A stretch of DNA of 64,000 bases from the NCBI RefSeq assembly GCF_009363715.1, contig NZ_CP045404.1, forward strand, positions 2,696,001 to 2,760,000, written 5' to 3'. The notes beneath the pieces were generated by a model that was given only the letters and a program-made list of their open reading frames with translations, made no database searches and had not been told where the DNA came from. Source of the DNA: Roseovarius sp. THAF9 (GTDB lineage Bacteria; Pseudomonadota; Alphaproteobacteria; Rhodobacterales; Rhodobacteraceae). Below are positions 47,112 to 61,736 of this stretch, one piece after another. How positions within the stretch are numbered: the first letter of the stretch is position 1; each line of letters starts with the position of its first letter. The translations under genes and the position numbers were made by a program.

Positions 47112-48749
47112 TCAGAGAGTCGCCAGAAGCTGGCGCTGCTCGGTCCAGTCCGAGGGCAGGTCATGCCGCAGGCACCACTCGGATGTGAAGCCGATGGGTT
47201 GCCGGCCTTCGAGGACATCGCGAACGATGTCGGGCGCGAGGAACGCAAGGCCGACCAGTTGCTGGATGCGGCGTTTAGAAGTGCCTTCGCTGGCGGCGAT
47301 CTCGGAGACCGTCTCGCCCGCCTTGATCCGCTCGAACCAAGCATGCGCCTTGGCAATATTGCGGATCAGAGTGTCATCAGTCCCTGACGGGACATCGTTG
47401 AGGATGATCTTTGTTTCCACACCGCGCTTGCGAAGCTGGAAAGGAAAGCTTGTACTGAGGTAGGTTTGATCGAGATCGTCCGGTGCAATGTCGATCAAAT
47501 TTGACAGCGCCGCCGGCTCAAGCCGCAGGCCAAGCCGCCCGGGCATGATGTCGATCCGGCCCACCAGGCCGAGAAGCTTCGCGGGATCTGCATCGACAGC
47601 ATGAGCGGCCAGCTTTGCGGCATGCCGACCGATGGCATCGGCGGAGGCGCCCTGAACAAGCTTCGCCGCGAAACCATGTTCGACCAGCATCATCTGGATG
47701 AGTTTGGCGACCTTCCTTTCCAGGTCTTCCGCGGCGAGACGCCAGGCACCGCTGTGAGCCTGTCCTGCCTGCGCGACCAGCCGATGCGAGATGTAGTACC
47801 GCAGACGCACGCCTCGCTTTGTCTTCGAATGCGAGGGTGTGAGCCTGTCCCCGGTCTCGTCGAAGAGCTTGCCACAAAGCAGGCTCTTGCGCCTGGCCGT
47901 TGAAGATCCACGACTGCGGGCGGCTCCTGCCTGAAGCTGATCCTGCACCTTGTCCCAGCGGTCCGGTTCGATGATGGCAGGATGAGCGCCTTCAAAGACC
48001 TTGTCGCGGTGCCGGATCCGTCCGGCATAGATCGGGTTGGTCAATATGTGATGGATGTGCCCCCGGTCGAAGGGATTGCCCCCGGTCACCTGGCCGGAGG
48101 TCGTCGTCCGTCGTCGGCTCGTGAGACCCAGCCGGTCCGCCTCAGCCTTGACGGCACGGACGGTGCCAAGCCGCTCGTAAAGGTCGTAGAGCGTTCTGAT
48201 CGTAGCGGCTTCGGCCTCGTTGATCTTCAGCGTCCGGCCATCGGGGTCGTACCCCATGGGAACCTGCCCGCCCATCCAGAGCCCCTTGCGTTTTGATGCC
48301 GCGATCTTGTCCCGGATCCGCTCCGCCGTCACCTCGCGTTCGAACTGGGCGAAGGACAGGAGCATGTTCAGCGTCAGCCGCCCCATGCTGGTGGCAGTGT
48401 TAAACGACTGGGTGACCGAGACGAAAGAAGCACCGGCGTCATCCAGCACATCGACGATCTTCGCGAAGTCCGCCAACGACCGGGTGAGCCGATCGATCTT
48501 GTAGACGACCTGATCCACCCTCCCCTCCTGCACATGCTCCATCAGGCGCTGCAGCGCCGGACGCTCGAGCGAGCCACCTGAGAGGCCGCCATCATCGTAG
48601 GCGTCGGTTAACATCACCCAGCCCTCGTGCTTCTGGCTTGTGATGTAGGCGCTGCAGGCATCCCTCTGGGCATGAAGGGAGTTGAACTCCTGCTCCAGTC
48701 CGTCCTCGGAACTCTTGCGGGTGTAGACGGCGCAGCGGATCTTCTTCAC
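47112..48749 (-). CDS. Large serine recombinase
   Basis: 545 residues. N-terminal resolvase domain with catalytic Ser in RCAVYTRKSSEDGLEQEFNS and YDDGGLSGGSLERPALQRLM, YKIDRLTRSLADFAKIVDVL, SFAQFEREVTAERIRDKIAA. The recombinase domain follows (NPIYAGRIRHRDKVFEGAHP) but the zinc-ribbon part is short: only one Cys is seen around SLLCGKLFDETGDRLTPSHS, so the usual Cys set is incomplete. C-terminal helix-turn-helix at GETVSEIAASEGTSKRRIQQ. GTG 48749 is chosen, four bases inside the DUF2924 gene (GTGA). It could integrate or excise DNA, but its partner site is not identified. Confidence 0.92.
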   Translation of the reverse strand: MKKIRCAVYTRKSSEDGLEQEFNSLHAQRDACSAYITSQKHEGWVMLTDAYDDGGLSGGSLERPALQRLMEHVQEGRVDQVVYKIDRLTRSLADFAKIVDVLDDAGASFVSVTQSFNTATSMGRLTLNMLLSFAQFEREVTAERIRDKIAASKRKGLWMGGQVPMGYDPDGRTLKINEAEAATIRTLYDLYERLGTVRAVKAEADRLGLTSRRRTTTSGQVTGGNPFDRGHIHHILTNPIYAGRIRHRDKVFEGAHPAIIEPDRWDKVQDQLQAGAARSRGSSTARRKSLLCGKLFDETGDRLTPSHSKTKRGVRLRYYISHRLVAQAGQAHSGAWRLAAEDLERKVAKLIQMMLVEHGFAAKLVQGASADAIGRHAAKLAAHAVDADPAKLLGLVGRIDIMPGRLGLRLEPAALSNLIDIAPDDLDQTYLSTSFPFQLRKRGVETKIILNDVPSGTDDTLIRNIAKAHAWFERIKAGETVSEIAASEGTSKRRIQQLVGLAFLAPDIVRDVLEGRQPIGFTSEWCLRHDLPSDWTEQRQLLATL

Positions 48750-49156
48750 GCCCCACCCCCTTCCCGGCGATTGAGACCGAAGAAGCGCGGTCCGGACCAG
48801 TTCGTTCCGGTGATGTGTTTCGCGATCGCTGTAAGCGATGACCACCTGCGTCTGTCGAGGCGATAGCCGGTGTCGGTCACCTCGACCTGGTAGCTCCGGC
48901 CGTTCCATTCCCGGACAAGATGAGCCCCGGGCTTGAGATTGCGCCGCGAGGCCTCTGCTACCGGTTGACCGCAAGCAATACGTGCCAGAGTCTTGCGCGT
49001 CGCCGCGGACAACCCGCCGTGGCGACGGCACTGCGCCTCATACGCCACCGCCTTCTCCATGAAGGACACCGAGAGATACAGCGGAGGAGGAGAACCGAAG
49101 ATCTCCTCCCAACGTGCTTTGGCGCCGTCTCGCTCCGGGTGTGGCTTACCCGGCAT
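48746..49156 (-). CDS. DUF2924-domain protein
   Basis: 136 residues from ATG 49156: FGSPPPLYLSVSFMEKAVAY, then LKPGAHLVREWNGRSYQVEV and the end SLTAIAKHITGTNWSGPRFF. These blocks define DUF2924, a small basic protein nearly always encoded between DUF3489 and a serine recombinase. A DNA-binding helper of the recombinase is a reasonable inference. It overlaps both neighbours. Confidence 0.9.
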   Translation of the reverse strand: MPGKPHPERDGAKARWEEIFGSPPPLYLSVSFMEKAVAYEAQCRRHGGLSAATRKTLARIACGQPVAEASRRNLKPGAHLVREWNGRSYQVEVTDTGYRLDRRRWSSLTAIAKHITGTNWSGPRFFGLNRREGGGA

Positions 49157-49451
49157 ATGCGGCCTCTGCGGAACCGGAGTTATGTAGTCTGGCTTCAGGC
49201 TCCGCGGCGATGCGATAGCGCGTCGGCTTGCCGTCGTCCGACTTCGTTGCCGCGATCTGGTAGCCCGCCTTGCGCAGGCCAGTGAGCGCGGCGCGCGTTG
49301 TATGGGTCTGCCAGCCCATCTTCTTGCTGATCGCCGCAATGTCGGACCCAGTCTTGGTTTGCAGCATCACGATCAGCTGCGCCTTTTTCGTCGTTCGGAA
49401 TTTGCCTGTGGTTGTCTTCTTCGGCTTTTGGGATTGCGGTGCGGTCATCAT
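49146..49451 (-). CDS. DUF3489-domain protein
   Basis: 101 residues with a winged-helix-like core: KKAQLIVMLQTKTGSDIAAI, SKKMGWQTHTTRAALTGLRK and AGYQIAATKSDDGKPTRYRI. DUF3489 proteins lie with DUF2924 and a recombinase and probably bind DNA. AAAGGAGACA precedes tandem ATGs at 49451 and 49448. First gene of the three-gene recombinase unit. Confidence 0.9.
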   Translation of the reverse strand: MMTAPQSQKPKKTTTGKFRTTKKAQLIVMLQTKTGSDIAAISKKMGWQTHTTRAALTGLRKAGYQIAATKSDDGKPTRYRIAAEPEARLHNSGSAEAAYAG

Positions 49452-49813: not shown

Positions 49814-50431
49814 TCAGCGGATCAAAACGCCAGATGCCATAAAGCCCCCGTCTACATTCAGGATGTGACCATTGATATAGCCCGCATCATCTGACGCCAG
49901 AAACTTGATCGCAGATGCGACTTCCTCGGGCTTCGCGTAGCGCTTCGCTGGAATCTGCGCTTCCCAAGCCGCGCGGTCCTTCGGACCATGAACTTGTAAA
50001 ACCATGGGGGTATCCACCGGCACTGGAGCAACTGCGTTTGCAGTAATGCCCTTGTCGCCCAACTCCGTAGCCAACAAGCGTGTCAACATGCCGACTCCGC
50101 CCTTGGTGCAGGAATAGGCTCCTCGTCCTGTGTTCGCGATTTGGCCATTGACCGAACTCACCGTGATGATGCGACCCCAGCCTTTTTCCAGCATCTGGCG
50201 GCCGGCGAGCTGACAGCAGTGGAACGCACCTGTCAGGTTCACATCAATAATACGACGCCAGTCTTCCGGATCGAAATCGAGAATGGCGTTGGTCTTTACG
50301 ATAGCGGCGCTTGCGACAAGGATGTCCTTCCCTCCCGCTTCTTTGATCTCGGCGAAGACCTCTTCGAGGGCGGCTCAGTCGGTCACATCTACCTGCAAAG
50401 CGTCTACGTCAGCAAGCGGCGGATATTGTGG
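49814..50431 (-). pseudogene. Short-chain dehydrogenase/reductase, 5'-truncated with internal stop
   Basis: The intact C-terminal 142 residues show the SDR core: DVNLTGAFHCCQLAGRQMLE, IITVSSVNGQIANTGRGAYS (Ser of the triad), YSCTKGG (Tyr and Lys) and GHILNVDGGFMASG. Upstream the same frame continues as ADVDALQVDVTD, then a TGA, then ALEEVFAEIKEAGGKDILVA. The first 50 residues with the Rossmann glycine motif are absent and the usual NNAG is replaced by ASAA. I take it as a decayed gene. Confidence 0.82.
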
Positions 50432-50667: not shown

Positions 50668-51789
50668 CTAGCAGTTGCCCATCTGTCTGTTGCACCCGAG
50701 GTTGACCAGATCCACGAATTCTTGCCCTAGCCGAGAGCTGCCCTGGACCTTTGGGTCTTCGTCGGTGAAGCCGTAAGAGGTAACACCAACAAGCCGGTTG
50801 GGACTGTCGAATTCCGCGCCGGTCTGGCCCTCAGCTTTCACGCCGAAATTCTCAAACCAGCCGCCGCCGGACGAGCCGCCTCGCATGTCGGAGCCATAGA
50901 GGACGGTGTTCTGCGAGGCATCTTCGTGCCAGGCGCTGTCGACCTGGTGCATGACTTCGCCGCGGTCGTGGTTGCCTGGATAGCCGATTTTCTTAGTATG
51001 GTTCGGGCTGAGGGCTCCGGTGCGGTAGCCCGCCCAGCCGACGACATCGCCGATCCGCTTCATCTCGCCATCGAACTCGCGGTCTGCGACCTCGATAATC
51101 GCCAAATCGCCCGAGTTTGGAACGCTGCCGTTGGAGGTTGACCATGCGGCGGTGGTGGCGACCCAAGTGTAGGTCCATTGCTGATAGGGCGCGTTGCCGC
51201 GATGGTAGGCGGGCACGAAGATGATATTGGTGTAGAACCCGTCGCCTCCGTCAGATCCCTTGTGGACGCAGTGTCCGGCGGTCAGCACAAGCCGCGGCTT
51301 GATGACTGTGCCGGAGCAGATGAAATTGCCGATGCCCGGTTTCGTGAAGAAGATCTTGCCATTCACACGATATGGGTAGTGCAGGCGGGCGTCTTCGGGC
51401 ACAAGGCGCGAACTGGAGAAGTACGCGCCCAACGAGCCGACCGCCTCTTGCACAAAGGGTTCGGTTTCGTCAAAGCCGCGCGGCCGGACGATCTCGTTGC
51501 CGAGATCGGCCTCGATTTGGGCGTCTTCTGTGGCGTAGCGACCGTTGTCAGTGTCCTGGTCTATATCGTCATGCACGTCGCCAAGTGCGACGCTCTCAAA
51601 GCCCTCTTCGGGGATCGGGAGCTCCTGATCCTCGGCGTCTCCCAGCGTTTCGCGGTTCCAAAAGCCATCATCGCCACCGAGGTCCACGCCCGCGTCGGGG
51701 TTCGTGGCGGAGATTGGCCCATCCTGCGCGTGAACGGCGGCAGCGATGAAAGCCAGAGCTAGCAATGTTGAAATCCGTTTTAAAAACAT
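50668..51789 (-). CDS. Secreted trypsin-like (S1/V8-type) serine peptidase
   Basis: 373 residues; signal peptide MFLKRISTLLALAFIAAAVH (cleavage near AQ-D). Residues about 25-115 form an acidic propeptide-like part. The peptidase domain carries His in RLVLTAGHCVHKGSDGGD (about 173), Asp in NSGDLAIIEVADREF (about 228) and Ser in SDMRGGSSGGGWFENFG (about 307), so the triad is complete. The end has two Cys (LGCNRQMGNC). ATG 51789 has AAGGAGAACTCC before it. Fourth gene of the island operon 57226-50668, 32 bases after the second peptidase. Substrates unknown. Confidence 0.9.
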   Translation of the reverse strand: MFLKRISTLLALAFIAAAVHAQDGPISATNPDAGVDLGGDDGFWNRETLGDAEDQELPIPEEGFESVALGDVHDDIDQDTDNGRYATEDAQIEADLGNEIVRPRGFDETEPFVQEAVGSLGAYFSSSRLVPEDARLHYPYRVNGKIFFTKPGIGNFICSGTVIKPRLVLTAGHCVHKGSDGGDGFYTNIIFVPAYHRGNAPYQQWTYTWVATTAAWSTSNGSVPNSGDLAIIEVADREFDGEMKRIGDVVGWAGYRTGALSPNHTKKIGYPGNHDRGEVMHQVDSAWHEDASQNTVLYGSDMRGGSSGGGWFENFGVKAEGQTGAEFDSPNRLVGVTSYGFTDEDPKVQGSSRLGQEFVDLVNLGCNRQMGNC

Positions 51790-51821
51790 GGAGTTCTCCT
51801 TCCTTGGGCTGATAGATTGTG

Positions 51822-53132
51822 TCAATTGCTTGTGTCCGGTGCGACGCCGCCACCACTCGAGCCCGGCGAAACGATTGTCGGGTCGCCCGCGTTGCCGTCA
51901 CTTTCGTTCGCGGTGGCACTTTCGGATGCGGTCGGCAGTGGCAGCGGAGTGGCGTTGTCGGTCGATGTCTCGTGGTTGGTGGAAGTTGCCGGAGCGAAAA
52001 CCGGCTCGGCGGCTTCGGGCGCGTCGACACCGGTCAGAAGCGTGCCTAAGGTGGCGAGGTTAAGCTTGTCGGTGATATCGGGGTTGCCGTGGCCTGCGCG
52101 CTGCTGCCCAACGACGAGACCCTCGAGGCTGAACACTGGCGAGCCGGAAGAGCCACCCTTGGTGTCGCAGGTGTGACCGAAAGCGTGGGGTTCGGCCCCG
52201 GTGATGACGTCATCCTCACGTCCGCAGCCGACGATTGACACCTGCTTGGTTGCGCCGCCGGGGTGCTGGACGATGAACAGCGGTTCCTCAGAATCGGGGT
52301 CGGAATCCCGGAAGGAGACTGTTGCGTATTCGTCATCCGGCGAGGGTACGACGCGCAGCAATACGGTGTCTGCGGCGCTTTCGTCTTCGGCTGCGATGAC
52401 CTCCGCGCACGCCACCTCCTGTCCGCGCAGCGTCGCGTTGAAGGCGTTTTTCTTGTAGCCAAACAATATTTTGGCGCCGTCGCACGTGGCATCGTCGCGA
52501 ATGCAGTGGCGGCTGGTCTGGAGGAGGTCGGGGCCGACGCGGAAGGCGGTGCAATAGTCACGTGCGATGTCGTCGACGAAGAACGTCAGGCGACCGACCG
52601 CGCTCTCGACGCTGGCGACGACATCAGCGTGATCGCCGTCATAGTTGTCAACGCCGATCAGGTCGTTGTCGCCGAAGATCGACTCCAGCGCGCCTCCGGG
52701 TACGGGAAAGGCGACACGGTCGATCTCGAATGCGAGGCCGTCGAGGGCGTCGACGCCGTAGACGCTGACCTCTGCAAAGTTCGCAGGCACGGTCAGGGTC
52801 CAGTAGACCTCGCCAACAGTCAGATCTTCGCCGCGAATGGTCTCAAAGACGGTGCCAAAAGCGTTGGTGATCTCGATGACAAAATCTCGGGTGTCGGGCA
52901 GAGCGCTGATGGTCAGGCGCAGGTTCATCTCTGGCTCGGCTCCGACTGCGGCCTGCACGGGGGCCGGGATGCCAGCAACCCAGGCAAGGTTGCGGTCCCC
53001 GGCGACGATACCGGGCGGGTCAAACTCGACGTTCAAGCTGCTGACCACGCCGCCGCGATGCGATTGGGCTGAGCCGTCCCCGGCAAGCAAGGCCGCGACG
53101 ATCGCCGCCGTGCAGGAGGTGCGAAGGGTCAT
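51822..53132 (-). CDS. Secreted trypsin-like serine peptidase with N-terminal beta domain and acidic Ser/Thr-rich tail
   Basis: 436 residues; N-terminal MTLRTSCTAAIVAALLAGDG is signal-like. Residues about 30-145 are beta-rich (FVIEITNAFGTVFETIRGED; VYWTLTVPANFAEVSVYGVD). The peptidase part has His in DLLQTSRHCIRDDATCDG (about 209), Asp in ESAADTVLLRV (about 255) and Ser in DTKGGSSGSPVFSLEG (about 329). The last 65 residues are low-complexity (STNHETSTDNATPLPLP), like a linker or wall-facing tail. Its ATG overlaps the stop of the S8 peptidase gene (ATGA). Confidence 0.88.
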   Translation of the reverse strand: MTLRTSCTAAIVAALLAGDGSAQSHRGGVVSSLNVEFDPPGIVAGDRNLAWVAGIPAPVQAAVGAEPEMNLRLTISALPDTRDFVIEITNAFGTVFETIRGEDLTVGEVYWTLTVPANFAEVSVYGVDALDGLAFEIDRVAFPVPGGALESIFGDNDLIGVDNYDGDHADVVASVESAVGRLTFFVDDIARDYCTAFRVGPDLLQTSRHCIRDDATCDGAKILFGYKKNAFNATLRGQEVACAEVIAAEDESAADTVLLRVVPSPDDEYATVSFRDSDPDSEEPLFIVQHPGGATKQVSIVGCGREDDVITGAEPHAFGHTCDTKGGSSGSPVFSLEGLVVGQQRAGHGNPDITDKLNLATLGTLLTGVDAPEAAEPVFAPATSTNHETSTDNATPLPLPTASESATANESDGNAGDPTIVSPGSSGGGVAPDTSN

Positions 53133-55312
53133 CTTGCGCTCGCGATGAAGTCCACGAGGCGGGAAAGCTGCACCTTGTGAACGCTGTCGTCGAATTCGCC
53201 GTTGCAGGCGTCCGAGAAGGATTTCACGTCGATATGGATGCGATAGATTTCTGGGTTGTCGTCGAAACTAGCGTGCGCGCGCCCGAACCCGTCGCCGTTG
53301 GCATAGAAGAAAATACCTTCGTCATCTTTCCAGTGAAGGCGGCGAATGTCCCCGATCGGGCGAGTGAGAACGGCATCGTTCGACAGCAGTTTCAACTTGA
53401 AATCCGCGTCTTTCCACTGCTGATCCACATGCTTCTTGAAGTTCCGGACGTCGCCCGACAGCACGCAACCGTTGTCCAGCTGCATCCAGTCCTCTTCCAA
53501 CAATGCCGCGCTGGCATCGAGCGCGCCGCCCTGAAGCTGCTCGACCGCGTCGGTCGACAGCCGGGAGGAATAAATCAGCCGTTCGCGTGTTTTCGTCGGG
53601 GAAAGGTTGCCGCGTTGCATCAAGAGCGCGGCGGCGGCGGTGACCTGCGGGGCGGCTTGCGAAGTACCGGTCATCGCGCCGAAGGCGCCTTTTTCGATGG
53701 TTGAGACGATGTTGCGCGCGGGCGCGCCGACTGCAAAGGTGCTGGCGCCGTAGTTGGTGAGAAACTTGTCGGGGTCGTCCTTCTGCTTCAGAAGCTCGAC
53801 GCTTTCAAGTGCGCCTTCCAGCCCGACGACCGCAATGACATTCGGCAACGAGCGGGCGTAGCAGGCCGGTTTGGCGGGGCAGGTGCCCTTCTCGGCATTC
53901 ACACCGTGCTTGCCGGCGGCTGCGACGAAGAGGATGTGATCGGCGAGACTTTCGATCACTTCCAGAACCGGATCCTTCTCGGCCTCGTCGACAACGCGAT
54001 ACGACGAGCTAAAGTTGAAGATCCGCACGCCTTCGATCACCGCGCGACGAATTGAATCCGCCAGATGCACCGGGAAGTTCGGATCGCCCTGAAGGTCGGT
54101 CGCCTCGTCGAACGGGATGACCACGTAGGAGAAGTTCGGCACGTCGCCCAACAGCCCACCGACGCCACGGGCGTTCTGCTTTGCGGCGAGGAGGCCCAGC
54201 ACGTGCGTGCCGTGGTGCTTTCGTTGGACGAGGTCCGGATGCCGCACGTCGTCGTCGCAATCAGTGGTCGCGCCCTGGGCCGCGCCATCGCCGTCGCCAT
54301 CGACGATGCTCAGATTGAGGACGCGGATGTTGTCGCCAAAGTCGCAATGTATCTCGGGTGTCTGGTCGATGACGCCGATAACGAAGGGGAGGATCGCGTT
54401 GATTTCAATCTCCGGGCATTTACCGTGGACGGCGACGTTGCAGAACGAGTCGAGAATGATCTGCTGATGTGTAGCAAGCGGTTCTTGCGCGAAACTGGCG
54501 AAGAGACCGGCACCGTGATTGGATTCGAACTGCAGTTCGATTGGCGCGATGAGGTCTTTCGACAGCCGTTGGTTGAACTTCTGGAACGCCGTGTCGGAGA
54601 AATCGTGGTTGGTCGGGCTCGTAGCGCGTAGCCTTTCGTAGTCTTCGATCGGGCGCTCGGACACGTTAACCCTGGCGGCGAGGTGCGGCACGAGTCGGAG
54701 AGGAAAAGGCGCCTTGTTCGACTCGCGGGTTGCCACGACAATGTCGCGCAAGCGTCCGAGAGGTTCGTCGGGGTCGGTGACGTAATCGTCAAAGCAAAGC
54801 GAATCGGTCAGGCAGATTCGCTCGATCCTGAAATCCGGCACCTCGACGGTTGCGTTGGGTTGTGCCGGTTCAGGGCGGGAGATCTGGATGATCCGCACAT
54901 CGGGTATCGTGATCGTATCGGTGGGTCTCACGGTCCAGCGTTCCGGCTTGGCGAAGACACCAGCAACGCTTTGCACATCCTTGTTCCGGTTCGAGTCCGA
55001 TGGCACAAGATCGCACCTGGCTTCGTTCAATTGGCATAGAAGGGTCGCGATCTGTTCGGTCATCGGGCCGACCCATGCGCCGTTCGCGCGCATCACCTCT
55101 TCGGGTGTCGTATGACCGTCCATCGGAACTTCGCGAAACGGCAGGCGTCCCGTGTTGTAAAGCGTCAGGAGAAAGTCTTGCTGCGCAAGTTGTGCCTGGT
55201 CTCGATTAACTACACGTTTTTCCCAGACAATGTCGCGGGTTTGCGCGAGCGCCGGGAGGGCAAGGGTTGCGAGGACGGCACCCAACGCCACGGTGCGAGC
55301 GAGATAAATCAC
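53129..55312 (-). CDS. Secreted subtilisin-like (S8) peptidase with altered oxyanion residue
   Basis: 727 residues from GTG 55312 (GGAGGGAAC just upstream); signal VIYLARTVALGAVLATLALP cleaved near ALA-QT. Residues about 25-300 are an unrecognised N-terminal region. The S8 domain has Asp in FVIGVIDQTPEIHCDFG (about 316), His in VQRKHHGTHVLGLLA (about 367) and Ser in MTGTSQAAPQVTAAAAL (about 551). The oxyanion Asn expected in AAGN is Lys (LFVAAAGKHGVN, about 468). A C-terminal region of about 130 residues follows. Coupled to the next peptidase gene by a four-base overlap. Confidence 0.9.
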   Translation of the reverse strand: MIYLARTVALGAVLATLALPALAQTRDIVWEKRVVNRDQAQLAQQDFLLTLYNTGRLPFREVPMDGHTTPEEVMRANGAWVGPMTEQIATLLCQLNEARCDLVPSDSNRNKDVQSVAGVFAKPERWTVRPTDTITIPDVRIIQISRPEPAQPNATVEVPDFRIERICLTDSLCFDDYVTDPDEPLGRLRDIVVATRESNKAPFPLRLVPHLAARVNVSERPIEDYERLRATSPTNHDFSDTAFQKFNQRLSKDLIAPIELQFESNHGAGLFASFAQEPLATHQQIILDSFCNVAVHGKCPEIEINAILPFVIGVIDQTPEIHCDFGDNIRVLNLSIVDGDGDGAAQGATTDCDDDVRHPDLVQRKHHGTHVLGLLAAKQNARGVGGLLGDVPNFSYVVIPFDEATDLQGDPNFPVHLADSIRRAVIEGVRIFNFSSSYRVVDEAEKDPVLEVIESLADHILFVAAAGKHGVNAEKGTCPAKPACYARSLPNVIAVVGLEGALESVELLKQKDDPDKFLTNYGASTFAVGAPARNIVSTIEKGAFGAMTGTSQAAPQVTAAAALLMQRGNLSPTKTRERLIYSSRLSTDAVEQLQGGALDASAALLEEDWMQLDNGCVLSGDVRNFKKHVDQQWKDADFKLKLLSNDAVLTRPIGDIRRLHWKDDEGIFFYANGDGFGRAHASFDDNPEIYRIHIDVKSFSDACNGEFDDSVHKVQLSRLVDFIASAR

Positions 55313-55354
55313 TGTTCCCTCCAAGTTTTCTCCGTTCTCCGTAATTTGGAACGG

Positions 55355-57226
55355 TCAAAGTCCTTTCAGATATTCAACGATTGCACGGCGCTCGGAGTCG
55401 GTGAACGCCGCATTGCCATAATCATGCCCGGCGTTGGAATTGCCGGGGATGATATTGCCGTCGTCGTCACGAACGCGGAACGTCCAGGGCGCACCGCCAC
55501 TCGTGAAGCCAACGTTGACGGGGTCGAACTCGCGCGAGCCAACGCCGAAGGTTTCGGGGCGGAACGGGCCGGAGCCGTCACTTTCGGCGGCAGCGAAATT
55601 GCGCGCACGCGCGGGTAGGAGGAGATCGTAGAGCGTTGGCACCGAGCCGTTGGCCCAGATGCCGTTAAGCGGGCGGGCCTTGTAGGCCAGAAGCGGATCG
55701 GACGCGGTAAGGCACTGGCGAGCACGCTCTTTTTTCACTGGGTCGACCACGCCGGGGAGAACCTCTCCGGCAGGCGTGTCCATAATGATGGTACCGCGCT
55801 CGGGCTCGATGTCAGAAAACAGCGCCGAGACCAGTTCGTCCGCCTTACCGATGATCGAGCCGACCGAAGCGTTAATGAGCATTTTTCGCGTTGCATCGAC
55901 CTCGTCGATCTTGTCGCCAAAGAAGCCAAGGGTGCGCTGGCCTTCCATGTTGCCAGACGCCGTAGTGCGCAGGTAGGTGTTGCAGGCCAAGAATATATCG
56001 GTGCCGGATTCGAGAAGATTGGTCATCTGGTCGCCAGCGGGCGTGCGTAGGTCATCGGGTTCAAGATGCGCGTGGCAGCGGCGGCAGTTGGCTTCGAACA
56101 GCACGTGGCCTTCCGCCTCCAGAACCGGGTCGATCGCGCCGAGAATATCTTCGGGCCAGACTGGGGATTGCAGGCGCGAGAGCAGGCGCTCCAGTCCGAC
56201 CATCTCGGTTAGCCGCGTGCTGCTGTCATAGCCAAGCCCAGCATAGCCACGGTTGGCTTCAATGTGGGCGAAGACACCGATGACCTCGGAGACGTTGCGG
56301 ACCAGCGCGCCGAAATCCGTGGTCCGTCCGAAGAGCGGAAGCTTAAGGATCGAGGGGGCAATTCCGTTCCACTGGAGCAGGGTTTGCTGGTGGGTGTTCC
56401 AGATGAACGGGTAGCTGGCGGGTGCATCAGAGGCGAAATCGTCCGCCGGGCTCGCGGCTCCGTTGATCATGGAAACCTTGGTCAAGATGTGGCCCTGCGC
56501 ATCGAGGCGGGCAGGACCGGCAATGACCTCGCCGTGGTTGATGGCGCGCAGCGCGGCCATCCAGTCGAGCTGTTCATTGAGCTGATCGCGGAGCGAGCTG
56601 AGCGTTTCGGCATCGGCTTGGCCACCGGAAATGGCCGTGGCGAAGCTCTGGAAACGGGCGGCGTCGGCTACGGTAGCACGCAGGGCGTCCTCGGTGCCGT
56701 TCACCAGCGCGTCGAAATCGGCTAGCGCGGGGCCGCCGTCGACGCGGAAGCGAGTTCCGTTCGAGGTGATTTCCATCGTATGGCAGGCCGAGCAGTTGAG
56801 GCCGATCCAGGGCTCGCGCATCGTCCGGGATCGGCAGGTTTCGGGGAAAGTGTCGCACATGAGGTCGGCGGTACGCCGCGGATCATGATCGACAACGAAG
56901 CCCACAGGCAGCCCCTCGGGGTTGGCAACAGAGGCTGGGTTGGGAAGGTAGCCGAGCCGCGCGAGGTTGGCGGGGCCATACATAGCTGAGGTGCCGTCAG
57001 CGGTCTTCAAGGCCAGCGCCCAAGAGAGCGGAATCAGGCGCGAGCCTTGCGAGACCGTGTACCACCATTGCCTTTGTTCTTCCGACCAGCCTTGATCGAG
57101 GCAAGTGAGGTCGCCGCCCGTGCAGGCAGTAGAAACTTCGGATAGCGGCTGTGCGGAGGACGGCAGTGCAGCGGCGCTGAATACGAAGGCGGCTGAGAAA
57201 TGAAGGAATTTGAGGCACTTTTTCAT
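55355..57226 (-). CDS. RoxA-like secreted di-haem cytochrome (cytochrome c peroxidase superfamily)
   Basis: 623 residues; signal peptide MKKCLKFLHFSAAFVFSAAA cleaved near SSA-QP. Two haem c sites: WIGLNCSACHTMEITSNGT (Cys145-His149) and FEANCRRCHAHLEPDD (Cys381-His385), plus a third-domain block YKARPLNGIWANGSVPTLYD (about 515-533). The arrangement resembles RoxA/RoxB-type rubber dioxygenases and related di-haem peroxidases. Family members usually carry about six further residues (A-P-Y-x-H-type) between GIWA and NGSVP; they are missing here. AGGAAC precedes ATG 57226. First gene of the four-gene secreted-protein operon. Confidence 0.85.
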   Translation of the reverse strand: MKKCLKFLHFSAAFVFSAAALPSSAQPLSEVSTACTGGDLTCLDQGWSEEQRQWWYTVSQGSRLIPLSWALALKTADGTSAMYGPANLARLGYLPNPASVANPEGLPVGFVVDHDPRRTADLMCDTFPETCRSRTMREPWIGLNCSACHTMEITSNGTRFRVDGGPALADFDALVNGTEDALRATVADAARFQSFATAISGGQADAETLSSLRDQLNEQLDWMAALRAINHGEVIAGPARLDAQGHILTKVSMINGAASPADDFASDAPASYPFIWNTHQQTLLQWNGIAPSILKLPLFGRTTDFGALVRNVSEVIGVFAHIEANRGYAGLGYDSSTRLTEMVGLERLLSRLQSPVWPEDILGAIDPVLEAEGHVLFEANCRRCHAHLEPDDLRTPAGDQMTNLLESGTDIFLACNTYLRTTASGNMEGQRTLGFFGDKIDEVDATRKMLINASVGSIIGKADELVSALFSDIEPERGTIIMDTPAGEVLPGVVDPVKKERARQCLTASDPLLAYKARPLNGIWANGSVPTLYDLLLPARARNFAAAESDGSGPFRPETFGVGSREFDPVNVGFTSGGAPWTFRVRDDDGNIIPGNSNAGHDYGNAAFTDSERRAIVEYLKGL

Positions 57227-58242
57227 GGCAAGTTCCTGCGTGCTGTGGCGCATTGGAGAAATATGGGCAGAATACATGGCAGGTCAGGCTGGCCCTCGAC
57301 GCGGTATACTTAGACGCACTCCCGGACATCGGTTAGGCACGCGCATCAATGCTGGTACGGGAAAATTACTTATCTGAGAGGCATCACCTCGCCGACAAAC
57401 GCTTGTTGAACGTCGCCAAAGAATGCCTGTGCGACCGCAAGGAAGAGCGCCAGAATTGCAGTAATTAAAATTTGATAACGACTTTTATGACAGAACTCCT
57501 ATCGTTGAAAATGTTAACAATGTACTCTACTTTAAGGATTTAAGCAATCAGTTTGGCGCCGGGTGCATCACGCGTGAAGAGTATTAGTGCGACGATCCTC
57601 TTTCTCATTCAATAACTCTTCCAAATGGACGATCAGAGCTTACTTTGACAGTCATAACTCTTTTTTCTTGATTGTGTGCTCAACAATCTGACCGTAAGAA
57701 CCATTAGTTTTTTGCTCCGCTTGATCTGCGCTACCCACTCGTGAAATGCATGCGCCTGAACAACGCCGCGATGAAGATTGCTTGAGGCATGACGGTCGAC
57801 GAAACAGCGATGGATGTAGGCTACCTCAGCCCGTCGCGCTTCAGCCGTGAGTTCAAGCCTATTTATGGGCAGTCGCCCTAGCAATGGGACGAAGCTAAGC
57901 AGTTTTCATGGGTTTTGCTTGAGGCCTCGAAGGCTTGCTTATGTATGCAACCGTGAATGCGTGAATGAATGTCGGCTACGTGGGCTGCGGCTGCAGCATC
58001 ACGACACCTAACTGAGCCAGCTAAATGGGCAACAACTATAGCATTAAAAACGTGAGAGTACTTGAACTAATGCGATTGAAGTGCACGACGTACATCCGCT
58101 AGTGTTTCAACAGGATTTTCAGACGGCTCAAAAAATAGATACTCATTTTCAAGAAATGATTGTGAGTGGCTAGCAACTGCCCAAAAACTAGATCTCGTCA
58201 AAGCTGCATACACAAGGACTTCGCCCGTTAAGGCCAAGTTGT
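57227..58242. other. AT-richer intergenic stretch
   Basis: About 1 kb upstream of the cytochrome/peptidase operon. It contains the AraC-type remnant at 57744-57903 and should contain the operon promoter close to 57227-57350. Nothing else convincing; the part 58020-58240 looks like non-coding, AT-rich DNA. Confidence 0.5.
57744..57903 (+). pseudogene. Remnant of an AraC-family regulator (C-terminal helix-turn-helix)
   Basis: Plus-strand frame reads MRLNNAAMKIA, stop, GMTVDETAMDVGYLSPSRFS then REFKPIYGQSP, stop, QWDEAKQ. This is the second helix-turn-helix of an AraC-type activator (pattern VGY-x-S-x-S-x-FSR-x-F-K-x-x-x-G-x-SP). Two in-frame stops and absence of the rest of the gene show decay. 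Confidence 0.75.
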
Positions 58243-59070
58243 CTAATCGTCTTTTGTTTCAGGGGCCACTCCATCGCTACTCAAACACCCAGCGACTACC
58301 TTGAAGAAGCGTTCTAGAGCGGCATTCTGTACAATTACTGAGACGGTGCCGCCCCCAGTATCGCTAGCACTTGCAGAACTTTGCGCAGAAATATTCCCAT
58401 CTTCTTCTGGGATTTCTGGAATACCGGATACATCTGTTATCGCAGCTGAGAACGCTTGCACCAAAGCAGAAAAATTAGCAACTTCGCGCGTCGTACCATA
58501 CAAAGTTCTATATTCAACTTCTCGCATGGCGAGGACCATTACAAAGGACGCAAATTGAACGGGTATCGCATTGCTTGAACTACCTGGGCTGTAGTCTTCA
58601 AGATCAACTTCTTCGTAAAGTGATCCAGAAAGAGCTATACAATTCATTCGAGAGGCGCCTTCATACAACGACTGTATCGCCGTTTTTGGGACCGCTCTTG
58701 AGCCAGCTTGTTGAACTGCCACAGCCCCAGTAGCCCTTCTAACCAATGTCTCGTCCGAGACGCCATCGACAGCGCCCAAAACCGTGGCACCAGCTGCAAT
58801 TATTAGTGCACCAGTCGAGACATCCTGAATATTCTGTGATTGCCTAGCAGCACGGGCATAGGCATCAGCTTGATCGAATGCTAGACGAACGGCCCCGGAC
58901 AACGAACAACTATGTGAATTTTTAGAAGTCCGAGGACATGCAAGCATTTTCATGTCGTCAAAATCGTCGAGTTGTCTGTGAGTTCCTTCAACCCCTTGAA
59001 CTTGTTGCTCTAGGATAAACTCAGCGCAACCACTCAGTAAAAAAGCCAAAAGAAGCGAGCGAAACTTCAT
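58243..59070 (-). CDS. Orphan lipoprotein, AT-rich
   Basis: 275 residues. N-terminus MKFRSLLLAFLLSGCAEFIL has a lipobox (LLSGC). The middle has a hydrophobic Ala/Gly segment (VSTGALIIAAGATVLGAVDG) and further Cys in MLACPRTSKNSHSCSLSGA, RMNCIAL and VAGCLSSDG. I recognise no family. Base composition is clearly lower in GC than the core genes, consistent with transfer. ATG 59070 follows GGGGGAAAGC. Single gene between the AraC remnant and the IS elements. Confidence 0.75.
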   Translation of the reverse strand: MKFRSLLLAFLLSGCAEFILEQQVQGVEGTHRQLDDFDDMKMLACPRTSKNSHSCSLSGAVRLAFDQADAYARAARQSQNIQDVSTGALIIAAGATVLGAVDGVSDETLVRRATGAVAVQQAGSRAVPKTAIQSLYEGASRMNCIALSGSLYEEVDLEDYSPGSSSNAIPVQFASFVMVLAMREVEYRTLYGTTREVANFSALVQAFSAAITDVSGIPEIPEEDGNISAQSSASASDTGGGTVSVIVQNAALERFFKVVAGCLSSDGVAPETKDD

Positions 59071-59358
59071 GCTTTCCCCCGAAAAAACTAATCCAAAAAA
59101 AACTCCACACACGAAAAAGTTGTATCGGAAGAAAACTTTCTCAAAACGATTCTGTCTAGTAATTTCTTTAGGTGCACTCGAGAGACGAGTTGCTGTGATC
59201 CTTGAAAGCGTCCTCGTTTAAGGTTAGGACACCGACCCATAAACGCGCAATCAGATGCGTGTTGGGGCGAGTTTGTCTAACGTCAGCACCTACCGGACAG
59301 ATTTAGGTGTTTGAGGAACGGAGGATTTCTGGTTCATCGAAGCCATAATGGAGCGAAG

Positions 59359-59733
59359 ATGAACAAGAGATCCGGAACATCCAAGGATGCTGCTGACAAG
59401 CTTGTTAGGGGTATCAAGCGTAAGACCCGCAAGCACTACTCGGCGGAGGAGAAGATCCGCATCGTGCTTGCCGGGATGCGGGGCGAAGAAAGCATAGCGG
59501 CCCTGTGCCGTCGTGAAGGGATCGCTGAGAGCCTTTATTACAGCTGGTCGAAGGAGTTTCTTGAGGCTGGGAAGAACCGGCTGGCGGGTGACACAGCCCG
59601 TCAGGCGACAGCTCCCGAGGTCAAGGAACTGCGCTCTGAGGCAGCCGCGCTGAAAGAAGTGGTCGCGGAGCTGACACTGGAGAACAGGCTGCTCAAAAAA
59701 AGCACGTTCGGGGATGGGGAGGACGACGCATGA
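59359..59733 (+). CDS. IS3-family transposase OrfA (copy 1)
   Basis: 124 residues from ATG 59359 (GGAGCGAAG upstream): HYSAEEKIRIVLAGMRGEES and LCRREGIAESLYYSWSKEFL form the helix-turn-helix, followed by a leucine zipper (LKEVVAELTLENRLLKKS). A run of seven A at 59695-59701 is a candidate -1 slippery site that could join OrfA to OrfB. Here OrfB is truncated, so copy 1 cannot make a full transposase. Confidence 0.9.
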   Translation: MNKRSGTSKDAADKLVRGIKRKTRKHYSAEEKIRIVLAGMRGEESIAALCRREGIAESLYYSWSKEFLEAGKNRLAGDTARQATAPEVKELRSEAAALKEVVAELTLENRLLKKSTFGDGEDDA

Positions 59734-60310
59734 GATACCCAGCCTCGGAGAAGCTCGAGATCATTCGGACAGTCGAAGCCTCGCATTTGCCGGTCAGGCG
59801 GACCCTGACCATGCTCGGCATTCCCAGCAGCACCTATTACCAGTGGTATGCGCGGTGGGCCGATGGCGGCGTTGACGCTTTGCGTGACACGTCCCCGCGG
59901 CCTCGGGCGGTGTGGAACCGCATCCCGGACGAGATCCGCGACGCCTTCGTTGAGTTCGCGCTGGATCATGAGGATCTGACGCCACGGGAATTGGCGGTCA
60001 AATACACCGATGAGAAACGGTATTTTGTATCTGAGTCCTCGGCATACCGCATTCTCAAGGCCCAGGACCTGATCACGGCTCCGGCCCATGTGGTGATCCG
60101 TGCCGCCGATGAGTTCCGGGACAAGACAACTCGGCCCAACGAACTCTGGCAAACCGACTTCACCTATCTCAAGGTCATCGGTTGGGGCTGGTTCTATCTC
60201 AGCACGATCCTCGACGATTACAGCCGCTACATCATCGCGTGGAAGCTCTGCACGACAATGAAGGCCGTGGATGTGACGGACACGCTGGATCTGGCGCTGG
60301 AGGCCTCGGG
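59730..60310 (+). pseudogene. IS3-family transposase OrfB (copy 1), truncated
   Basis: Carries the first about 194 residues of OrfB, including the DDE Asp residues in LWQTDFTYLKVIGWGWFYLS and DDYSRYI, up to LDLALEASG. It then runs into the end of copy 2 (VRLQSFSDKS...), a chimeric tail to 60440. The catalytic Glu region is missing. Confidence 0.9.
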
Positions 60311-60384
60311 TGTCCGTCTTCAGAGTTTTTCGGACAAGTCGTTTGTTTTGGTAACGGAGGCTCTGGTTCGGTTTCTGTTTGAGT

Positions 60385-61365
60385 TTAGGCGACCGCGGCT
60401 TTGTGCTGCAACCGGCGCTTTCGGATTGTCTGTTTCTTGATCTCCTCTCTCATTTTCAGGATCGTCCGACCCCGACCGTGGTAGACGTCAGCCGGCGTCA
60501 GGTTATCCAGGCTCTCGTGGTATCGCCGAGTGTTGTAGTATCCGACGAAGTCGCCGATCTGGCGTTCAAGATCCCCCGGCAGATAGTAGTTCTCCAGCAG
60601 AACCCGGTTCTTCATGGTCTGGTGCCAGCGTTCGATCTTGCCCTGGGTCTGTGGGTGGTGCGGCGCTCCGCGGACGTGATCCATACCTTTGGTATCGAGG
60701 TAGTCGGCCAGGTCGGCCGCAACGTAGGACGAGCCGTTGTCGCTGAGCAGCCGGGGCTTGTGAACGACTGTCGCATGAGCACAGCCCGAGGCCTCCAGCG
60801 CCAGATCCAGCGTGTCCGTCACATCCACGGCCTTCATTGTCGTGCAGAGCTTCCACGCGATGATGTAGCGGCTGTAATCGTCGAGGATCGTGCTGAGATA
60901 GAACCAGCCCCAACCGATGACCTTGAGATAGGTGAAGTCGGTTTGCCAGAGTTCGTTGGGCCGAGTTGTCTTGTCCCGGAACTCATCGGCGGCACGGATC
61001 ACCACATGGGCCGGAGCCGTGATCAGGTCCTGGGCCTTGAGAATGCGGTATGCCGAGGACTCAGATACAAAATACCGTTTCTCATCGGTGTATTTGACCG
61101 CCAATTCCCGTGGCGTCAGATCCTCATGATCCAGCGCGAACTCAACGAAGGCGTCGCGGATCTCGTCCGGGATGCGGTTCCACACCGCCCGAGGCCGCGG
61201 GGACGTGTCACGCAAAGCGTCAACGCCGCCATCGGCCCACCGCGCATACCACTGGTAATAGGTGCTGCTGGGAATGCCGAGCATGGTCAGGGTCCGCCTG
61301 ACCGGCAAATGCGAGGCTTCGACTGTCCGAATGATCTCGAGCTTCTCCGAGGCTGGGTATCTCAT
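60385..61365 (-). CDS. IS3-family transposase OrfB (copy 2), DDE integrase
   Basis: 326 residues. Helix-turn-helix part (RTLTMLGIPSSTYYQWYARW), then the rve integrase core: first Asp in LWQTDFTYLKV, second Asp in LLSDNGSSYVAADLADYLDT, Glu in TQGKIERWHQTMKNRVLLEN, and YNTRRYHESLDNLTPADVYH. Complete DDE triad, so probably active. Its ATG overlaps the orfA stop (ATGA). Confidence 0.95.
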   Translation of the reverse strand: MRYPASEKLEIIRTVEASHLPVRRTLTMLGIPSSTYYQWYARWADGGVDALRDTSPRPRAVWNRIPDEIRDAFVEFALDHEDLTPRELAVKYTDEKRYFVSESSAYRILKAQDLITAPAHVVIRAADEFRDKTTRPNELWQTDFTYLKVIGWGWFYLSTILDDYSRYIIAWKLCTTMKAVDVTDTLDLALEASGCAHATVVHKPRLLSDNGSSYVAADLADYLDTKGMDHVRGAPHHPQTQGKIERWHQTMKNRVLLENYYLPGDLERQIGDFVGYYNTRRYHESLDNLTPADVYHGRGRTILKMREEIKKQTIRKRRLQHKAAVA

Positions 61366-61736
61366 GCGTCGTCCTCCCCATCCCCGAACGTGCTTTTTTT
61401 GAGCAGCCTGTTCTCCAGTGTCAGCTCCGCGACCACTTCTTTCAGCGCGGCTGCCTCAGAGCGCAGTTCCTTGACCTCGGGAGCTGTCGCCTGACGGGCT
61501 GTGTCACCCGCCAGCCGGTTCTTCCCAGCCTCAAGAAACTCCTTCGACCAGCTGTAATAAAGGCTCTCAGCGATCCCTTCACGACGGCACAGGGCCGCTA
61601 TGCTTTCTTCGCCCCGCATCCCGGCAAGCACGATGCGGATCTTCTCCTCCGCCGAGTAGTGCTTGCGGGTCTTACGCTTGATACCCCTAACAAGCTTGTC
61701 AGCAGCATCCTTGGATGTTCCGGATCTCTTGTTCAT
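61362..61736 (-). CDS. IS3-family transposase OrfA (copy 2)
   Basis: 124 residues, same sequence as copy 1 OrfA: helix-turn-helix plus leucine zipper. The A7 run (complement at 61394-61400) precedes the orfB overlap and may allow a frameshifted OrfAB fusion. Confidence 0.92.
   Translation of the reverse strand: MNKRSGTSKDAADKLVRGIKRKTRKHYSAEEKIRIVLAGMRGEESIAALCRREGIAESLYYSWSKEFLEAGKNRLAGDTARQATAPEVKELRSEAAALKEVVAELTLENRLLKKSTFGDGEDDA

Follow-up and report, generated by a model that had tools for sequence, protein, structure and literature searches.

The four-gene set that occupies positions 50,668 to 57,226 of the window (the 64,000-nucleotide stretch of the Roseovarius sp. THAF9 genome analysed here, part of a 4.07-Mb contig) encodes a di-haem c-type cytochrome, a subtilisin-like S8 peptidase and two different trypsin-like S1 peptidases, termed T1 and T2. 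The preferred reading of this set, at a probability of about 0.45, is a horizontally moved, modular cassette for exported oxidation-plus-proteolysis, organised around a protease cascade. It is built on the directly observed gene order, homology, recurrence in other genomes, overlap of the S8 and T1 genes, catalytic residues and co-occurrence within the genus. Judged from the sequence comparisons, the core of the cassette is the S8-T1 pair, which is also found with other partner enzymes. No named system or paper describing the combination was found in a limited search of the open literature, with most subscription journals outside its reach, in agreement with the earlier note, which knew of none.

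The gaps between the genes were recomputed as 42 bases (cytochrome/S8), -4 (S8/T1) and 32 (T1/T2), and the layout first described for the four genes, strands included, is borne out. The start of the cytochrome gene is an in-frame ATG within the 57277 open reading frame (ORF). This spacing points to co-transcription of an operon-like set. The families named in the earlier note are confirmed by Pfam matches over the gathering cut-offs (RoxA-like_Cyt-c, Cytochrom_C, Peptidase_S8, Trypsin_2 and Trypsin) and by an NCBIfam match above its cut-off. All four N-termini have, by eye, the look of a Sec signal peptide, and the four proteins are apparently exported.

The earlier note had proposed looking for the same gene order in other genomes. 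Preceded by a regulator gene, it recurs as regulator-cytochrome-S8-T1-T2 in a Nitratireductor metagenome-assembled genome (MAG; locus L023) and in Ruegeria lacuscaerulensis HKCCC1264 (L024), which belongs to the same family as the window organism in the genome set. Identity between L023 and the window is 73% for the cytochrome, 47% for S8, 48% for T1 and 71% for T2. Two MAG loci (L025, L027) carry T2-T1-S8 divergent from regulator-cytochrome, and five rhizobial loci (L004 and L005 on Rhizobium plasmids, L026, L028 and L029) hold regulator-cytochrome-S8-T1 with no T2. Named strains among the carriers include Rhizobium sp. AAP43 and Rhizobium sp. WL3 in addition to the Ruegeria strain. Cytochrome, S8 and T1 are found together in nine loci beyond the window, at 52-73% cytochrome identity, and four of the nine also encode T2. 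The regulator and cytochrome stand without the peptidases in L030-L033 and on the megaplasmid of Ruegeria pomeroyi (L006), and the cytochrome stands alone in L034 and L035.

Across the 17 close cytochrome loci (the window, L004, L005, L006 and L023-L035), S8-T1 adjoins the cytochrome in 10, the window included, T2 is present in 5 and the regulator in 14; several of these loci are closely related (L025 with L027, and the rhizobial set), so the 10 cases of S8-T1 are not independent. The LuxR-type GerE domain of the regulator was confirmed by Pfam in L004 and L024 and assigned by homology at the other loci. The 13 loci L023-L035 came from a scan of named genomes, their genes being identified with a basic gene finder and tblastn. 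L040 duplicates the DNA of L024 (G720), and the two count as one. The tblastn search of plasmids with the cytochrome gave 40 matching records, five of which were examined, and close relatives such as H10 and H12 lie outside the 17 loci. More distant cytochromes on Methylobacterium and Bradyrhizobium plasmids (L007, L008) have no peptidase genes within 7 kb. A second S8 gene, apparently lacking a signal peptide, lies divergent upstream of the regulator in L004, L026, L028 and L029 (by Pfam in L004 and L026).

Related S8-T1 pairs also exist with no cytochrome adjacent to them, in L019, L020, L036-L039, L049 and L058. Genes for an amidohydrolase and an M10 metallopeptidase lie upstream of the pair at six of these loci, L019 and L020 from the same genus as the window and L036-L039 from the same family. 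Both families (Amidohydro_2 and M10) were confirmed by Pfam in L019 and L037, and Amidohydro_2 also in L036 and L039, the remainder being assigned by homology. An animal-type haem peroxidase is added in two of the six (L036, L038). In L049 and L058 the neighbour of the pair is a DUF1353 protein with a leader that resembles, by eye, the twin-arginine type. The S8 of the same-genus copies is 27% identical to that of the window over 705-759 aligned positions, the N-terminal part included. In the trees of both S8 and T1 the M10-type rows form one supported clade; the cytochrome-linked rows need two changes, which is still compatible with a single origin.

Of 16 junctions compared, 14 have the S8 stop overlapping the T1 start, nine of them by exactly four bases, as read from annotated or first start codons. 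L039, where the T1 start is uncertain, and L058, which was found later, are excluded from the 16; in L058 the stop and start abut. The conserved gene overlap, together with joint inheritance of the two genes, suggests that S8 and T1 are made in a fixed stoichiometry.

The S8 protein matches its Pfam domain at 72 bits with a triad of D316, H367 and S551, ahead of which lies an N-terminal part of approximately 290 amino acids (aa) with no fold assigned. The His and Ser of the triad are kept in 15 of 15 aligned sequences and the Asp in 14. At the oxyanion position, which we take to be equivalent to Asn155 of subtilisin, 16 rows hold Lys in three (the window, L023, L024), Gln in five (rhizobial) and Asn in eight. 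The window protein is kept in the S8 family as a putative peptidase because the triad and the Pfam domain are present; it lacks the oxyanion Asn. T1 has an N-terminal part of approximately 165 aa, a triad of H209, D255 and S329 (kept in 15/15) and a Pro/Ser/Gly-rich tail. This tail is present at four of the five loci that have T2 and absent from all ten that lack it. Near its end the tail of the window, L023, L025 and L027 proteins reads SPGSSGGG or SEPGSTGSG, a feature restricted to T2-encoding loci among those compared. The triad of T2, H173/D228/S307, is kept in 5/5, as is Arg135, which lies near the expected activation site; in the alignment with 3wy8 the chain of that structure starts approximately two residues ahead of Arg135 (within about 3 residues of it), if 3wy8 numbering begins at the mature end. 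The long N-terminal parts and T2 Arg135 suggest that the peptidases are made as zymogens.

The window cytochrome matches NCBIfam NF040606 (di-heme-cytochrome C peroxidase) over its full length at 510.1 bits against a cut-off of 150. Its haem sites are CSACH at 145-149 and CRRCH at 381-385, and the C-terminal His601 is retained; C145/C148/H149, C381/C384/H385 and H601 are invariant in 20 of 20 aligned cytochromes. The profile match to the RoxA structure 4b2n (E 1.3e-24) aligns RoxA H195, H394 and H641 to conserved His residues and does not span the F317/W302 stretch near the N-terminal haem. The RoxA haem ligands are taken from PMC6311187, which tabulates forms of the MauG motif such as PYFHNGSVP. 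Six residues of this motif, TAPYLH, are missing from the window protein, with NGSVP kept, and at the DNA level the gene is 18 bases shorter there than its L023 orthologue, in frame. Of 24 relatives examined, 23 have the P-Y-x-H of the motif; the one without it (L046) is a truncated ORF near a contig end. At L046:5788-8954 two tandem di-haem cytochrome-like ORFs are seen, the second of them truncated. The His of TAPYLH was considered as an axial haem ligand and rejected; the 4b2n alignment and PMC6311187 assign the axial position to the His of the C-terminal GHD, a residue retained in the window copy. No relic of a LuxR-type regulator was detected upstream of the window operon (tblastn best E 0.56), nor was any match to one found across the whole genome in a search run without its own positive control. 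With its MauG motif incomplete and no regulator detected, the window copy may be non-functional or changed, and is probably altered or decaying.

The earlier description of the cytochrome as RoxA-like holds only as distant homology. Its scores against the NCBIfam rubber-oxygenase models are 19.5 bits for RoxA (cut-off 1000), 34 for RoxB and 30.3 for RoxC, far below cut-offs of 900-1000 bits, and four intact relatives also fall below them at 48-79 bits. By the curated models it is a distant relative of RoxA and no rubber oxygenase, and a rubber oxygenase role was rejected on the scores of the window protein and the four relatives.

The genes are rare. The cytochrome was found in at least 9 of 385 genomes of the class (single-protein search) and the S8 profile in at least 2 of 385, these being lower bounds, as only a few top candidates in each genome were scored in the searches at class and phylum level. 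The S8 profile was matched in 7 of 292 genomes of the order, one being G714 (L041), which matches in the catalytic domain only (E 1e-16) and is omitted from the counts, as are weak partial T1 matches in G043, G475, G489, G1074 and G958. Within the genus, full-length T1 occurs in 3 of 84 genomes, a fourth giving partial matches only; 5 of 83 match the cytochrome profile, one of them partially. All three genus genomes with the pair carry the cytochrome (post-hoc hypergeometric 1.1e-4). Two of the three belong to related species (76-81% protein identity), in which the cytochrome is unlinked, more distant and directly beside another S8 gene. At L056:7585-9218 this S8 appears broken into two overlapping frames, and the L055 copy is intact. 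No S8 neighbour was recognised by similarity around the other unlinked cytochromes checked. At full support, the cytochrome tree unites the window copy with those of Nitratireductor (Phyllobacteriaceae), Palleronia and R. lacuscaerulensis (Roseobacteraceae), a pattern suggestive of horizontal transfer.

In the mechanism proposed for the oxidation-plus-proteolysis cassette, module A would comprise the LuxR-type regulator and the di-haem cytochrome, with oxidation driven by peroxide or O2. Module B would be the S8-T1 pair, optionally with T2, made in coupled amounts and acting as a short activation cascade in which T1 is processed to its mature form by S8, and T2 is then cleaved behind its conserved Arg by T1 (or S8). 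We infer that the oxidation by module A would fall on the same extracytoplasmic target as the peptidases, so that the target is made cleavable or is disposed of. Other lineages would replace module A by an amidohydrolase and a metallopeptidase, sometimes with an animal-type haem peroxidase, or by a DUF1353 protein. Among the roles offered in the earlier note, a proteolytic cascade fits best: the S8-T1 overlap, the long N-terminal parts and the invariant T2 Arg argue for it, and the order of cleavage stays conjectural. Breakdown of polyisoprene finds no support, given the Rox scores and the shortened MauG motif.

Proteolytic activation cascades are familiar from animals; mobile gene sets of this kind are, to our knowledge, seldom recognised among Gram-negative bacteria. 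A bolder form of the proposal is rather doubtful, namely an undescribed modular exported system with a fixed S8-S1 zymogen cascade as core and an exchangeable front end, oxidative or hydrolytic. Its layout would resemble the protease-cascade-plus-peroxidase of animal defence, and it would move across alphaproteobacterial orders. If true, a constant peptidase pair with an exchanged redox or hydrolytic partner would be a testable model for coupled extracytoplasmic oxidation and proteolysis, and would give a possible role to part of the NF040606 di-haem cytochrome branch.

Several observations weigh against the cassette as proposed. Seven of the 17 close cytochrome loci have no S8-T1 in the stretch seen. 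In six of those seven records S8 was not matched at E 1e-20 (the search covering just the plasmid for L006), so the cytochrome can occur without the pair; Bradyrhizobium SRL28, the remaining record, carries an S8-T1 pair at another position. Conversely, no cytochrome of this profile is present in 4 of the 7 genomes whose pair lacks an adjacent one. The cytochrome is probably neither an obligatory substrate nor an obligatory activator of the pair, because the two modules can live apart. The genus probability of 1.1e-4 is generous, resting on three genomes of which two are related and have unlinked, more distant cytochromes. The rhizobial S8 proteins are 18-20% identical to that of the window with no blastp match, their relationship resting on profile matches, position, size and catalytic motifs. 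With Lys or Gln in place of the oxyanion Asn in eight of the 16 rows, S8 might be a weak or pseudo-peptidase. The animal-type haem peroxidase was tried as an obligatory alternative partner and rejected: PF03098 is present in 15 of 32 genomes or records, in 9 of the 15 with the pair and 6 of the 17 without, and is too common for a specific partner.

An unlikely alternative to the cassette is a MauG-like maturation, in which the cytochrome would oxidise a residue of a co-encoded protein (a peptidase or pro-region) and S8 would trim the product, in the manner of protein-derived cofactor biogenesis. The MauG motif kept in the cytochrome relatives, the more distant cytochrome adjoining a different S8 in the two related species, and the subtilisin-like maturase QhpE of a cofactor operon (PMC7876137) speak for it; the genomes and records in which pair or cytochrome occurs without the other show no strict mutual need, and no further gene that might be the substrate is common to all cytochrome-linked loci (ORFs below 90 aa not being listed). 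Slightly less probable is a periplasmic stress response under LuxR-type control, with the cytochrome removing H2O2 and the peptidases clearing oxidised envelope proteins. The regulator that adjoins the cytochrome in 14 of the 17 loci and the peroxidase name of the NCBIfam model would fit it, whereas the best structural matches of T1 and T2 are secreted enzymes, no PDZ domain was found in either by Pfam, and the distribution is rare and patchy.

It is quite improbable that the genes form a weapon or predation set, in which exported hydrolases and an oxidant producer would act against other cells as interchangeable effectors. Partner swapping and a more distant S8 near a Trypsin_2-Endonuclease_1 fusion in L041 are consistent with this; matches to the PADLOC defence library were confined to weak ones for subtilase and protease, in work that included no search for immunity genes or secretion systems. 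A defence system was rejected, those matches being weak and at domain level. Oxidative breakdown of polyisoprene or another hydrophobic polymer, by a rubber oxygenase or a fatty-acid di-haem dioxygenase with unrelated peptidases alongside, draws on the 4b2n profile match and its three aligned His residues and is made very improbable by the Rox scores given above. The earlier note had allowed that the genes might stand together only here through chance insertion in a genomic island, and a serine recombinase gene and, by eye, transposase-like ORFs do flank the window copy; this is scarcely credible and was rejected on recurrence, with the trio found at nine loci besides the window, spread over Nitratireductor, Ruegeria lacuscaerulensis, the L025/L027 MAGs and rhizobia.

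Known systems share parts of this arrangement. As in the OmcZ-OzpA system of Geobacter, a gene for an exported c-type cytochrome lies beside one for a subtilisin-like peptidase; OmcZ, however, is an octahaem filament protein processed by OzpA (PMC9473688), whereas the cytochrome of the cassette has two CxxCH sites in the window sequence, also occurs without the peptidase elsewhere, and is joined by one or two S1 peptidases. RoxA and RoxB (PMC6311187) and FadCcp (PMC4496055) are similar in length, with two CxxCH sites, the position of the C-terminal His ligand and the MauG motif of the window cytochrome's relatives in common. The window protein differs from RoxA/RoxB in its sub-threshold Rox scores, its cut MauG motif and its linkage to peptidases; the FadCcp fatty-acid di-haem enzymes are set beside it by description, not by sequence. 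MauG and the qhp operon with QhpE (PMC7876137) likewise combine oxidative modification with a subtilisin-like peptidase in a single biosynthetic context. Unlike the qhp operon, the cassette has S1 peptidases, and no substrate subunit, radical SAM enzyme or flavoprotein was recognised in it. NF040606 itself, matched over the full length, includes members with no adjoining S8-T1, for example L007 and L008. The catalytic domains of T1 and T2 find their best solved-structure matches among V8/glutamyl-endopeptidase and AL20-type secreted S1 enzymes (1p3c, 3wy8, 3cp7), from which they differ in conserved N-terminal parts outside the matches and in the linkage to S8.

Genes of the window operon, with positions counted from the first nucleotide of the window
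Product	Length (aa)	Coordinates	Strand	Family
Di-haem c-type cytochrome, apparently exported	623	55355..57226	minus	NF040606 subfamily; RoxA/MauG/CcpA superfamily
S8 (subtilase) peptidase, apparently exported	727	53129..55312	minus	Pfam Peptidase_S8
S1 peptidase T1, apparently exported	436	51822..53132	minus	Pfam Trypsin_2
S1 peptidase T2, apparently exported	373	50668..51789	minus	Pfam Trypsin

Upstream of the operon, the stretch 57300-59300 has 47% G+C, against 64% in positions 1-46000 of the window, and contains short, broken-looking ORFs, one of them reminiscent by eye of an AraC-type regulator. A 289-aa ORF on the minus strand (58243-59112) is lipoprotein-like by eye and has no Pfam family; its one NCBIfam match, to midcut-by-XrtH, is weak (E 0.045). 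A transposase-like gene set, IS3-like by eye, follows in two inverted copies at 59311-61494. On the other side of the operon lie a large serine recombinase (Resolvase and Recombinase domains) with a DUF3489 gene at 47112-49451, and at 49814-50242 a short-chain dehydrogenase fragment that matches the C-terminal half of its family only. Elsewhere, at L041:5618-12504, an ordinary-looking S8 gene has as neighbours the Trypsin_2-Endonuclease_1 fusion and an Exo_endo_phos protein that also matches cytochrome P460 at a score under the cut-off.

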